Assembly (NCBI GenBank): GCA_947626495.1
Contig: CANQSJ010000004.1
Span: 1 to 33,068 of the forward strand
Source of the DNA: an uncultured Oscillospiraceae bacterium
GTDB lineage: Bacteria; Bacillota; Clostridia; Oscillospirales; Oscillospiraceae
Length of the DNA: 33,068 nucleotides
Direction: 5' to 3'
Made by a program: the position numbers and the translations under genes. This document shows positions 9,205 to 15,398 of this stretch, piece by piece. A model generated the notes under the pieces. That model saw nothing but the letters and a program-made list of their open reading frames with translations, had not been told where the DNA came from and ran no database searches. Within the stretch, counting starts at the first letter, position 1, and each line of letters begins with the position of its first letter.

Positions 9205-10863
9205 TTACTTCTTCTGCACGTATTTCAGGCAGTCGATGGTGACGGCGGCCAGGATGATGATACCGGAGAAGACGAACTGCAGGTTGGTATCCACGCCCAG
9301 GATGGTCAGGGAGTAGGTCAGAGCGGTGAAGATCAGCACGCCGACCACAATGCCCTGGATCTTGCCGATGCCGCCGCTGAAGGAGATGCCGCCCACCACG
9401 CAGGCCGCGATGGCGTCGGTCTCCCAGCCTTGGCCGTAGGAAGCGGAACCGGAGCCCACCATACGGATGCACTCCAGCCACGCGCCGAAGCCGTACAGGA
9501 TGCCGGCGATGGCGAAGGCGGTGATGGTGACCCGGAACACGGAGATGCCGGAGACGGCGGCCGCTTCGGAGTTGCCGCCCACGGCGTACATGTTCTTGCC
9601 CAGCGTTGTCTTGTTCCAGATGAAGTACATGATGGCGATGACGGCCACCGCCCACAGGATGATCGTCGGGAACTTTCCTCCGATCTTGGGCATGATGATG
9701 CTCTGGATCTCGGGCTCGATGGCGCCGAAGGACACGCCCTTGGTGGCGAAGGTCATCAGGCCGAACATGATCAGCATGTTGGCCATGGTGGAGATGAAGG
9801 GATGGATCTTGAACCGGGCGGTAAAGAACCCGGCGAAGCTGGTGAACAGCGTGGTGATGCAGCAGCAGACCACCAGCGCCAGCACCATCCGCACGCCGAT
9901 GGGCAGCGCGGTGAGGTCAAAGATATGCCCGAACAGGGCGCCCGTATTGATGCCCTTGTGCATAATCATGGTGGCCATCACCATGCTGGTGCCCACCATA
10001 CGGCCCACGGACAGGTCAGTGCCGCCCAGCAGGATCAGACCGCCCACGCCCAGCGCCAGGAACATACGCGGGGACGCCGCCTGCAGGATGTTCAGGATAT
10101 TGGTAACGGTGAGAAGCTTCGTGTTCTTGACCACCGGGGCCAGGATGCACAGCAGGATGAAGATCAGCACGATGACTATGTACAGGCCGTTGGTCAGCAG
10201 GAACTGGCGGATGTTGAAGCTGTATTTGTAGTTCTCCAGCTTCTGCTTCTGCTTCTCGCCGAAGGTGAACTTGCTCAGCCGCAGCAGGTCGATCAGGTGG
10301 TACCGGTGGGTAAAGGCGTCGTGCCGGCGGTCCTTGATCTGCTGCAGGGTGGCGTCGTGCTTCAGCTTGGCGTCAAACTGCTTGTTTTTGTAGACGTATT
10401 TCTCGTCCTTGATCTCCCCCTGATCGGAGAGCTTGGCGATATCAGCCTCATGCTGGCTCTTCAGCTCGGCCAGCTCGGCCGCATAGCGGGCATTCTCCGC
10501 CTCTTTTTCCGCGGCGCAGGAGGCGGCGACGGGGTTGTAATACTCCTTGTCGTAATTGGCGTCCAGGTATTTGACCGCGTCGTCGATCAGCGCCTTGATC
10601 TCCGCCCGGTTCTTCTCCTCCACGGCTTTCGCCTGCTGAAGGGCCTCTTTATCCTTGGCGATGATGTCCGCTTTCTCAATTTTTGTGTAGTTGGCGTTTT
10701 CCTTGACGATGGCGATATGGTTCGTCAGAGCCGTTACTTTGTCGGTACCGTCCACACGAAGCGCATCGATCTTCTTCTGGATCCCGCCGATGTATTCGTC
10801 AATGGGCGCCAGAAGCTGCTGTTCTTCTTCCACGGACAGGATTATCTCTTTTTGACTGGCCAT
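9205..10863 (-). CDS. mglC: Galactose-type ABC transporter permease with long N-terminal extension
   Basis: Residues from about 219 to 552 are a multi-span permease of the MglC/RbsC class, with GVGGLILLGGTDLSVGRMVG, WNKTTLGKNMYAVGGNSEAAAVSGI, DAIAACVVGGISFSGGIGKIQG and the family-like end DCLKYVQKK. It would form the membrane channel of the transporter encoded by mglB-mglA-mglC. The odd part is residues 1-218: a hydrophilic, Lys/Glu-rich, probably helical region (for example EEKNRAEIKALIDDAVKYL, AAEKEAENARYAAELAELK) that classical MglC (about 336 residues) lacks and that should lie in the cytoplasm. No stop or frame change separates the two parts, and no internal start has a clear ribosome site. 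The ATG at 10863 has GGAGG 12 bases upstream. It starts 19 bases after mglA. Confidence 0.92.
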   Translation of the reverse strand: MASQKEIILSVEEEQQLLAPIDEYIGGIQKKIDALRVDGTDKVTALTNHIAIVKENANYTKIEKADIIAKDKEALQQAKAVEEKNRAEIKALIDDAVKYLDANYDKEYYNPVAASCAAEKEAENARYAAELAELKSQHEADIAKLSDQGEIKDEKYVYKNKQFDAKLKHDATLQQIKDRRHDAFTHRYHLIDLLRLSKFTFGEKQKQKLENYKYSFNIRQFLLTNGLYIVIVLIFILLCILAPVVKNTKLLTVTNILNILQAASPRMFLALGVGGLILLGGTDLSVGRMVGTSMVMATMIMHKGINTGALFGHIFDLTALPIGVRMVLALVVCCCITTLFTSFAGFFTARFKIHPFISTMANMLIMFGLMTFATKGVSFGAIEPEIQSIIMPKIGGKFPTIILWAVAVIAIMYFIWNKTTLGKNMYAVGGNSEAAAVSGISVFRVTITAFAIAGILYGFGAWLECIRMVGSGSASYGQGWETDAIAACVVGGISFSGGIGKIQGIVVGVLIFTALTYSLTILGVDTNLQFVFSGIIILAAVTIDCLKYVQKK

Positions 10864-10882: not shown

Positions 10883-12391
10883 TCACAGATATTTTGCGCT
10901 GAGCCTCAGGAGTTCCTCCTGATCGGTTTCTTTGGTGTTGACGATACCGGAAAGGTGGCCGTTGGACATGACGCCGATCCGGTTTGTGATGCCCAGGATC
11001 TCCGGCATCTCCGAGGATACGACGATGATGGCCTTGCCCATCTTTGCCATTTTGATGATCAGCTCATAGATCTCATACTTGGCGCCCACGTCGATGCCGC
11101 GGGTGGGCTCATCCATCATAAACACCGCCGGGTCCCGCTCCAGCCACTTGCCGAAAATGACCTTCTGCTGGTTGCCGCCGGACAGCGCCGTGATGGAGTC
11201 GGACGGGCCCATGCACTTGGTGTGCATGACGTTGATCTCGTTGGCCGTGGCCTTGACCATCTTGTCCTTGGAAAGAGCGACGCCGGTCTTGTAGTGCTCC
11301 AGATTGGTGATCGTCGTGTTGAGGGTCAGGTCGCCCTCCAGGAAGAGGCCGGTGGCCTTGCGTTCCTCGGTGATCATGGCGAAGCCGTGGTCCATGGCGT
11401 CTCTGGCGTTGGCGAAGTTCATCAGGCGCCCTTTATAGTACACACGTCCCGCTGCCCTGGTCCGCACGCCGAACATCGTCTCCAGCAGCTCGGAGCGGCC
11501 CGCTCCCACCAGTCCGTACAGCCCGAAGATCTCTCCCTCCCGCACGTCAAAGGAGATATCCTTCAGGTTGGGGGCGAACTTGGTGCTCAGATGCTGCACG
11601 GAGAGCACCACGTCCCCCGGCGTATTGTCCACAGGCGGAAACCGGTTGTCCAGCGACCGGCCGACCATGGCGGCGATCAGCTCGTCCATGTTCGTGTCCT
11701 TGGTGTCCTTGGTCATGACCAGCTTGCCGTCCCGCAGGACGGAGACCTGGTCGCAGATCTCAAACACCTCGTCCATCTTGTGGGAGATGTACACCAGCGA
11801 GATGCCCTGCTCCCGCAGGTTGCGCATCATCTCAAACAGTTTGCTCACCTCGCGCACGGTCAGCGAGGAGGTGGGCTCGTCCAGCACGATCAGCTTCGCG
11901 TCATAGGAGATGGCCTTGGCGATCTCCACCATCTGCCGGGAGGAGACCGACATGGTCTTCATCGGCGCGGTCAGATTGACGGTCATATTCAGCCGCCGGA
12001 ACAGATCGCTGGCCTCCCGCTTCATCCGGGCCTCGTCCACAACTCCCATGGAGTTCTTGGGATACCGGCCCAGGAACAGGTTATCCAGCACATTCCGCTC
12101 CAGGCACTGGTTCAGCTCCTGGTGGACCATGGCCACGCCGTTTTCCAGGGCGTTTTTCGGTCCGGAGAAGTTGACCTCCTTGCCGTCAAAAATGATGGTT
12201 CCCTCATCCTTCTGATAGGTACCGAACAGGCACTTCATCATCGTGGATTTGCCGGCGCCGTTCTCGCCCATCAGACCCATGATGGAGCCAGGTTTCACGT
12301 CCAGATCGATGTGGTCGAGAACACGGTTACGGCCGAAGGACTTGCACATGCCACGGATCGATAGGACGGTTTTTGCTTCCTTATCAGCCAT
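10883..12391 (-). CDS. mglA: Galactose-type ABC transporter ATP-binding protein
   Basis: The 502-residue protein has two fused nucleotide-binding domains, as in MglA/RbsA. Domain 1 has Walker A GENGAGKST (42-50), a signature-like MSVSSRQMVEIAKA and Walker B LIVLDEPTSSL. Domain 2 has the degenerate P-loop GLVGAGRSE, the canonical LSGGNQQKV and VFMMDEPTRGIDVG. This asymmetric pattern is normal for the sugar subfamily, and the ending SSEMPEILGITNRIGVMSNG is close to enterobacterial MglA. It powers uptake through the mglC product. The ATG has GGAG 7 bases upstream. The gap to mglB (about 155 bases) holds two hairpins, so mglA is probably expressed below mglB. Confidence 0.95.
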   Translation of the reverse strand: MADKEAKTVLSIRGMCKSFGRNRVLDHIDLDVKPGSIMGLMGENGAGKSTMMKCLFGTYQKDEGTIIFDGKEVNFSGPKNALENGVAMVHQELNQCLERNVLDNLFLGRYPKNSMGVVDEARMKREASDLFRRLNMTVNLTAPMKTMSVSSRQMVEIAKAISYDAKLIVLDEPTSSLTVREVSKLFEMMRNLREQGISLVYISHKMDEVFEICDQVSVLRDGKLVMTKDTKDTNMDELIAAMVGRSLDNRFPPVDNTPGDVVLSVQHLSTKFAPNLKDISFDVREGEIFGLYGLVGAGRSELLETMFGVRTRAAGRVYYKGRLMNFANARDAMDHGFAMITEERKATGLFLEGDLTLNTTITNLEHYKTGVALSKDKMVKATANEINVMHTKCMGPSDSITALSGGNQQKVIFGKWLERDPAVFMMDEPTRGIDVGAKYEIYELIIKMAKMGKAIIVVSSEMPEILGITNRIGVMSNGHLSGIVNTKETDQEELLRLSAKYL

Positions 12392-12475: not shown

Positions 12476-12511
12476 AAAAGGGCCATCAGGAAGAGAACTT
12501 CCTGATGGCCC
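12476..12511 (-). terminator. Leaky terminator/attenuator between mglB and mglA
   Basis: GGGCCATCAGGAAG (12480-12493) pairs perfectly with CTTCCTGATGGCCC (12498-12511) around AGAA, a 14-bp stem. On the minus strand it is followed by only four T, then GG. Binding-protein genes are often made in excess over the rest of their transporter by such a partial stop. Confidence 0.7.
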
Positions 12512-12547: not shown

Positions 12548-13918
12548 TTACTGGAGCTTGGAGGTGTAGGAAGCCGCGTTGTCGGTCTTCACCATGTTGA
12601 TAGCGAAGCCGTCATACTCGCTGGGGTTGGCAAGACGGTCGGTGATGTTGGCCTCGGTCTGGCCGTCGCCGGCGATGTACTCCACATCCAGATTCAGGAT
12701 GCCGTCATAGTTCTCCAGCTGGGGCTTGTAGGTGGCGTTCAGGAAGTTATCGGTGGAGTTGAAGATGTCCAGCCAAACTCTCTTGACAGGAGCGTCCTCC
12801 TCGCTCAGCTGGTTGCTGAACGCGGGGTTGGGAGCGGTGGCGTCCAGGAAGGACTCGTAGTTCTCCGCGGTGACGGCGCCGTTCAGAGCGTAGAAGCAAC
12901 GGGTCGCCTCGTCGTAGTAGTACAGATCCTCGCTGAGCACGTTGCCGGCAGCGTCAGGAGTGCTGATGCCGGTCATGATGTCGGCGTCGTCCAGAGCGTT
13001 ACGCATCACACGCAGGGTCAGATAAGCCTGCACGTCGGCGTTCTGGGTGATGGTGCCGCAGTAGCCGTCGGCGATGGCGGCGACAGCGTCGGAGTTGGCG
13101 TCATAGCCGAAGGTGGGGACGTTGTTGTCCTTGGACCAGGCATTGAACACGGCCATGCCCATGCCGTCGTTGTTGGAGACGACCACGTCGATCTGATCGC
13201 CGAAGGAAGCGCTCCAGGTGTTGATGGCGTTGCCGGCGGTGGGAGCATCCCAAGTGGCGCCGGAGTTGTTCTTCATCTCCTGGGAGGCCAGCTCACGGAC
13301 GATGTAGTCGGTGCCGTCGATGGTGATGGAGCCGTCCTGAACCTCAGCGGAGGAGCCGTCCAGGTTGGTGCCGACAGCGTTGGGGTTCACGTCGTCGATG
13401 GTCTCAACAGCGGTCTTGCCCTGAGCGGAGTCGGGAACAGCGGTGCCCAGCGCCAGACGGGCGCCGCGGGTACGGGCGATGGAGTCGTTGTGGCCGATAT
13501 CGCCGATGCACAGCACGTAGCCGATGATGCCGTCGCCGTTACGGTCCAGGCCTTCGCCGTGGGCCAGCAGATAATCCACGATCATCTGGCCCTGGAGCTC
13601 AGCGCCCTGCTTGGCGTCGAAGCCCACGTAGTAGGTCTTGTCGTTGAAGGTCAGAGCGTCCATATCCAGCTCGCCGGTGGTGCTGTTGGAGGGCTGCCGG
13701 TTGAACCAGATAACGGGCTTCTCATTGTTGGGGACCTCAGCGGCCTCGGGCTCCTCGGCCTCAGGCTCCTCAGCCTCAGGTTCGGCTTCGGGCTCGGTAG
13801 CGGCCTCAGGCGCCTCAGCGGGGCCGGCCTCGGTCTCGGGCTTGCTGTCGCCGCCGCCGCAAGCGGCCAGCGCGAACACCATGACGAGCGCGAGAAGAAG
13901 TGCAAGAAGTTTCTTCAT
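12548..13918 (-). CDS. mglB: Galactose-type sugar-binding lipoprotein with circularly permuted domain order
   Basis: The 456-residue protein has a lipoprotein signal (Cys20 in FALAAC) and an acidic Ala/Glu/Pro linker (21-66). Residues 67-360 correspond to the later part of E. coli galactose-binding protein: VIWFN (N73, for N91), a DRNGDGIIG calcium-like loop (125-133), GHNDSIART (H143, D145, R149, for H152, D154, R158), W223 (W183), NND (N250, for N211) and FGYDA (D273, for D236), ending with ALNGAVTAENYESFL like the native C-terminus. After a linker (361-377), residues 378-456 match the native N-terminus: VWLDIFNSTDNFL carries D390-N391-F392 (D14-N15-F16), then DGFAINMVKTDNAAS like the native ALAINLVDPAAAG. 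The order is thus a circular permutation. GGAG 7 bases upstream sets the start. Matches were made by eye against remembered sequence. Confidence 0.88.
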   Translation of the reverse strand: MKKLLALLLALVMVFALAACGGGDSKPETEAGPAEAPEAATEPEAEPEAEEPEAEEPEAAEVPNNEKPVIWFNRQPSNSTTGELDMDALTFNDKTYYVGFDAKQGAELQGQMIVDYLLAHGEGLDRNGDGIIGYVLCIGDIGHNDSIARTRGARLALGTAVPDSAQGKTAVETIDDVNPNAVGTNLDGSSAEVQDGSITIDGTDYIVRELASQEMKNNSGATWDAPTAGNAINTWSASFGDQIDVVVSNNDGMGMAVFNAWSKDNNVPTFGYDANSDAVAAIADGYCGTITQNADVQAYLTLRVMRNALDDADIMTGISTPDAAGNVLSEDLYYYDEATRCFYALNGAVTAENYESFLDATAPNPAFSNQLSEEDAPVKRVWLDIFNSTDNFLNATYKPQLENYDGILNLDVEYIAGDGQTEANITDRLANPSEYDGFAINMVKTDNAASYTSKLQ

Positions 13919-14123: not shown

Positions 14124-14152
14124 ATTTTACCAATGTTGCAGGCAGTTGTCAA
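14124..14152 (-). promoter_or_regulatory. Promoter of the mglBAC operon
   Basis: On the minus strand TTGACA (14147-14152), a 17-base spacer and TAAAAT (14124-14129) match the consensus at 11 of 12 bases. The start would be near 14117, giving a leader of about 200 bases. The 325-base gap 13919-14243 contains this promoter, the operator-like repeat and the palindromes, and no supported gene. Confidence 0.8.
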
Positions 14153-15322: not shown

Positions 15323-15398
15323 GGACGATTGGCGCAGCTGGTAGCGCATCCGCTTGACGTGCGGGAGGTCACAAGTTCGAGTCTTGTATCGTCCACCA
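15323..15398 (+). tRNA. tRNA-Val (anticodon GAC)
   Basis: A complete cloverleaf can be folded. The acceptor stem GGACGAT (15323-15329) pairs with ATCGTCC (15388-15394). The D arm has GCGC/GCGC, and the anticodon stem TCCGC/GCGGG encloses loop TTGACGT with anticodon GAC at 15356-15358. The T arm is ACAAG/CTTGT with loop TTCGAGT. The discriminator A and an encoded CCA end at 15398. GAC reads the valine codon GUC (and GUU). It has its own promoter and is followed by a hairpin terminator. Confidence 0.95.

Follow-up and report, generated by a model that had tools for sequence, protein, structure and literature searches.

A further TpMglB-2-like, circularly permuted MglB lipoprotein in an uncultured Oscillospiraceae bacterium, encoded with a permease carrying a long N-terminal extension

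The sugar-binding protein TpMglB-2 (Tp0684) of Treponema pallidum has been reported to be circularly permuted relative to MglB (Brautigam, Deka, Liu and Norgard, 2016; PMC4990184), with the same residue equivalences as those found here. The parts of that report bearing on the permutation give dissociation constants of 1.1 μM for glucose and 33 μM for galactose, describe the same topology in many database matches from spirochaetes and Gram-positive bacteria, including many gut commensals, and suggest that the permuted class be called Type Ic or Cluster Bc (Brautigam et al., 2016). We analyzed a 33,068-nucleotide stretch of DNA from an uncultured Oscillospiraceae bacterium (contig CANQSJ010000004.1, positions 1 to 33,068; hereafter the window), which carries on its minus strand an mglB gene (12548..13918) for a circularly permuted glucose/galactose-binding lipoprotein of 456 amino acids. 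This TpMglB-2-like protein is almost certainly a further member of the described subclass. A preliminary description of the window, made from the sequence alone, had taken such a permutant among sugar-binding proteins to be undescribed; this claim of novelty fails in view of the 2016 precedent and of the Pfam family PF18610, which covers the displaced part. The preliminary description was right on structure and wrong on novelty, and the permease encoded nearby deserves a second look. The window protein is another natural circularly permuted sugar-binding protein of a kind already published, to which our analysis adds the profile-based homology of the displaced segment, the uncoupling of the lipid anchor from the permutation, and a cytosolic extension of the permease.

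The mglB reading frame starts with an ATG at position 13918 and ends with a stop codon at 12548-12550. As read from the sequence, its product begins with a signal peptide and lipobox (FALAAC/LAAC with Cys20; 13859..13918), followed by a Glu/Pro-rich acidic linker (residues 21-61; 13736..13858), of which residues 21-43 have predicted local distance difference test (pLDDT) values below 50 in an AlphaFold2 model. Within the core segment (residues 62-377), residues 67-360 (12839..13720) correspond by Pfam, profile and model to E. coli MglB from about mature residue 85 to its C-terminus, and thus comprise the remainder of the N-lobe and the entire C-lobe. Residues 361-377 (12788..12838) form a putative connector that alignment and model put at the place of the fourth hinge/extended stretch of TpMglB-2. 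The chain ends with the displaced MglB N-terminus (residues 378-456, 79 amino acids; 12551..12787), assigned by Pfam, profile and contact mapping. PF13407 matches residues 92-310, and PF18610 (Peripla_BP_7) matches residues 379-448 with 121.9 bits (cut-off 36.8).

A sequence search of the PDB returned 5jx2, 6bgd and 6bgc as the nearest solved structures (E 3.5e-93 to 3.2e-91); their chains align without any change of order as far as residue 455. With TpMglB-2 the window protein shares 45% identity, the circular order, by alignment the place of the connector, the pocket including the glutamine at the N256 position, the calcium-site residues and the lipoprotein character; it differs by about 24 additional residues around positions 160-195 and by the long acidic linker. 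It resembles E. coli MglB (GGBP, the glucose/galactose-binding protein) in fold, in nine of ten sugar contacts and in the gene order mglB-mglA-mglC, whereas the E. coli protein is linear in order and its signal lacks a lipobox. The nearest records of the window protein come from Gram-positive gut bacteria. Against NF011924, the NCBIfam equivalog of linear MglB, the window protein scores 93.4 bits in two stretches, below the curated cut-off of 420; by itself, this threshold fails to tell permuted from linear MglBs, since it is passed by none of 249 genomes of the phylum, including those with linear MglBs at 323-353 bits.

To compare the two orders, alignments were made to the E. coli K-12 MglB sequence taken from the genome record and scored with BLOSUM62. 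When rotated at residue 378, the window protein scored 235 semi-globally and 258 locally, against 207 and 230 in its native order. Shuffling the tail of the rotated protein lowered the score to a mean of 198.7 (standard deviation 8.9), and 235 was reached in one of 1000 shuffles. The AlphaFold2 model agrees with the permuted order and matches 6bgc along the length of the model, and in a sequence alignment the connector (about 361-377) falls on that of TpMglB-2. All ten sugar contacts map as the preliminary description had stated, nine being identical to E. coli MglB and N256 being replaced by Q292; glutamine occupies this position in TpMglB-2 as well and in 40 of 40 aligned rows. Judged by sequence, D125, N127, D129 and D244, with G133 in place of Q142, would make up an EF-like calcium-binding loop, altered as in TpMglB-2.

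Several observations weigh against this assignment. The highest rotation scores (248-253) were obtained not at residue 378 but at cuts 308-322, within the terminal part of the core, where similarity is weak; this peak lies outside the connector, so that the scan, while favouring the permuted order, locates the junction only roughly. Aligned on its own, the tail is weakly similar to E. coli MglB, with 23 of 73 aligned positions identical and 93 of 2000 shuffles scoring equally well. The AlphaFold2 model, built on 40 related sequences, is poorly defined at residues 21-43 and 76-81, and some other linear sugar-binding chains align to it as late as residue 421 with an aligner that is not permutation-aware. 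Finally, the window protein has D390 at the position of E. coli D14, where TpMglB-2 has N311, so that the sugar specificity of the two permuted proteins may differ.

The weak pairwise similarity leaves room for an origin of the 79-residue tail in another gene, whose product would have converged on the same strands; the discussion of origins by Brautigam et al. (2016) allows for such convergence. We consider this origin improbable in light of profile comparisons, in which the linear side consisted of E. coli MglB and nine linear MglBs from the window's phylum (of 11 linear regions, L174 was omitted because the start rule found no start, and L183 because neither mglA nor mglC was seen). A 40-sequence profile placed the tail on residues 28-93 of the MglB precursor in the expected register (E 0.0017), and none of 300 column-shuffled tail profiles reached the real score of 26.1 (mean 12.8, standard deviation 2.5, highest 23.4). 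The entire permuted profile scored 183.6, compared with 166.8 in native order. Short motifs line up too: the DNF of the D14/F16 contacts, GDGQ with NDSQ, and FAINMV with LAINLV. By profile, the displaced segment is demonstrably homologous to the native MglB N-terminus. The tail might still derive from a related linear sugar-binding protein.

The window stems from a 62-contig draft genome that is 89.8% complete, a circumstance under which two gene pieces might have been joined in the wrong order during assembly or binning. We scanned genome contigs for relatives and analyzed the best 80 of at least 555 confirmed ones; all 80 loci have the permuted order, as do 10 of 10 loci of the window's genus (some truncated by contig ends), the plasmid record of Treponema saccharophilum and the three crystal structures. 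The independent genomes refute an assembly error, the chance of which is practically nil. The circular permutation and its residue mapping, as given in the preliminary description, are supported: rotation and profile tests with their shuffle controls, the mapped contacts and the AlphaFold2 model are in agreement.

PF18610 was detected in 10 of 60 near relatives, all ten among the 35 genomes of the window's genus; draws of 400 genomes from its family and 398 from its phylum contained 21 and two genomes with this domain, respectively (the window genome being included in each count). Since nine members of the genus, 93-97% complete, lack PF18610, permuted MglB is apparently an accessory trait. 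In the window's own genome, seven PF13407 matches were found and NF011924 matches came from the window gene only; no linear paralogue was thus seen, an absence that in a draft is not proof. Among the loci examined, no open reading frame had the displaced segment before the core, and none had it on both sides, as a duplication intermediate would, compared with 110 that carry it behind the core (some loci contain the same gene twice); the hidden Markov model of the tail, used at E 0.01, also misses the N-termini of linear MglBs, so that a diverged intermediate would be invisible to this search.

In a plasmid collection, 23 records matched the window protein, and at least 80% of the query was covered in two of them, from Agathobacter rectalis and Treponema saccharophilum. 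In both species a permuted mglBAC operon lies on a replicon deposited as a plasmid (pTS2 in T. saccharophilum), and that of A. rectalis is found a few kilobases from IS91 transposase and integrase genes. Plasmid-borne mglBAC might be one way in which the operon came to be shared horizontally, as suggested by Brautigam et al. (2016).

Lipid anchoring is raised as a possible role of the permutation in the discussion by Brautigam et al. (2016), and the preliminary description had argued that the new chain order moves the anchor to a different face of the N-lobe. We classified signals by pattern match rather than with a trained predictor. The start rule parsed 73 of the 80 loci and failed for seven; with the window added, 73 sequences were classified, the start of one locus (L060) not being readable. 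A lipobox is present in 51 of these 73 permuted sequences and missing from 22, which by eye have signal-peptidase-I-like sites (e.g., AFA-DD) and pass directly into the fold with no linker. The linear set comprised the ten best NF011924 matches in the window's phylum, each adjoining mglA and mglC; nine of these MglBs carry a lipobox, and the start rule read no signal in the tenth. With a lipobox absent from 22 of 73 permuted proteins and present in nine of ten linear ones, lipid anchoring does not track with the permutation, which speaks against it as the reason for the rearrangement. The rationale of a relocated anchor is weakened to that extent. On a quick tree, in which 22 of 72 inner branches are strongly supported, the lipobox state changes at least seven times. 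Both kinds of signal occur in the window's genus: the window gene and two further loci (L008, L009) encode lipoproteins with an acidic linker, and in four others (L003, L004, L005, L010) the signal is of the ordinary signal-peptidase-I-like type and the linker is missing.

Downstream of mglB on the minus strand lie mglA (10883..12391), for a sugar ATP-binding cassette (ABC) transporter ATPase of 502 amino acids, and mglC (9205..10863), for a permease of 552 amino acids with PF02653 at residues 255-540; both were assigned from their open reading frames and family matches. In this setting, the window protein would very probably be the D-glucose-binding (perhaps also galactose-binding) lipoprotein of an MglBAC-type ABC importer. 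Its chain would run from the strand equivalent to about residue 85 of MglB to the native C-terminus, through the extra connector, and into the native N-terminal strands. By analogy with the in vitro data on TpMglB-2, it would catch glucose outside the membrane and close around the bound sugar, as other MglBs do; the closed protein would then dock on MglC, and MglA would power import. E. coli MglB serves both transport and chemoreception, and chemoreception is discussed by the TpMglB-2 authors (Brautigam et al., 2016), but a protein that acts as a sensor or chemoreceptor instead of an importer component is very unlikely here, as mglA follows in 78 of the 80 loci, and 72 contain mglC or its extension, the other contigs ending first. 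Chain order, displaced-segment homology, pocket conservation, predicted fold and operon were each established computationally. The permuted protein probably works, and the reading of mglB as a working gene in the preliminary description is supported.

Comparison and AlphaFold2 modelling gave the permease an N-terminal extension of about 215-220 residues ahead of its first membrane helix (10219..10863, minus strand). E. coli MglC has 336 residues and no extension, whereas the surplus of the 552-residue window MglC is N-terminal. Predicted helices span residues 11-37, 40-55, 61-144, 148-195 and 201-213; those of 84 and 48 residues form most of the extension in the AlphaFold2 model, the overall predicted template-modelling score of which is just 0.53. 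DNA for the extension is present in 72 of the 80 relative loci, including all 71 with the permease core, and in the remaining eight the contig ends within or before mglA; it was accordingly found wherever that DNA is covered (72 of 72), compared with none of ten linear operons. The latter encode permeases of 310-345 residues without a match to the extension, and the annotated permeases of a Fusobacterium and a Cetobacterium plasmid operon have 339 and 336 residues. Among complete permease reading frames in permuted loci, 66 of 67 have at least 548 residues. The exception is from Eubacterium plexicaudatum (L100, 9014-9511), where extension-like DNA lies upstream of a reading frame that starts later, with an apparent frame break that is either real or a sequencing error.

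In the draw of 400 genomes from the family, a strong match to the extension occurred in 22 genomes, including all 21 with PF18610. In the 22nd (G655), which has no PF18610 match, just 1.1 kb separates the start of the extension from a contig end; mglA is longer than that, and an upstream mglB would accordingly fall off the contig. Two weak matches in the same draw (E 7e-6 with internal stops, and E 4e-4) were taken as chance. In the draw of 398 genomes from the phylum, the extension and PF18610 were found in the same two genomes. The T. saccharophilum permease is 562 residues long; its N-terminal 215 residues can be aligned to the window extension at 26% identity (BLAST E 1e-15); this value was obtained without composition correction in a four-sequence database and is inflated by coiled coils, which makes homology likely rather than proven. 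No Pfam family matched the extension above its cut-off, and a profile of the whole MglC retrieved no solved relative at E 0.01. A prohibitin coiled coil was the best candidate for a solved relative of the extension (E 0.049) and was taken as chance.

The permease of the permuted class is said to have a similar distribution in the passages of the 2016 report that deal with it; the extension is not mentioned in those passages, nor does the name MglC occur in the main text (Brautigam et al., 2016). A literature search, to which most subscription papers were out of reach, yielded no account of the extension among the papers listed. Permuted MglB and the long cytosolic helical hairpin of MglC may conceivably belong to one co-inherited importer design and make up a structurally distinct class of glucose importer. 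In such a design, the hairpin would serve specifically for regulation or docking, would occur together with permuted MglB and nowhere else, and would have been retained as the genes moved between Spirochaetota and Bacillota; we regard this proposal as tentative and rather doubtful. The link between the two may be mere joint inheritance of one operon, and a functional link is conjecture. The extension nevertheless raises a testable question on how the importer class with permuted MglB is regulated.

Upstream of mglB, a sequence scan found a sigma-70-like promoter on the minus strand (TTGACA-17-TAAAAT, 11 of 12 positions; 14124..14152); four promoter-like sites occur in the region, compared with 1.5 expected from shuffles. 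At gathering scores, the only Rfam match in the window is a tRNA at 15323-15395. Between mglB and mglA, we noted by eye a perfect 12-bp inverted repeat followed by TTTTGG (12480..12511, minus strand), absent from the list of the terminator scan, which possibly forms a hairpin that balances expression within the operon by raising that of the binding protein.
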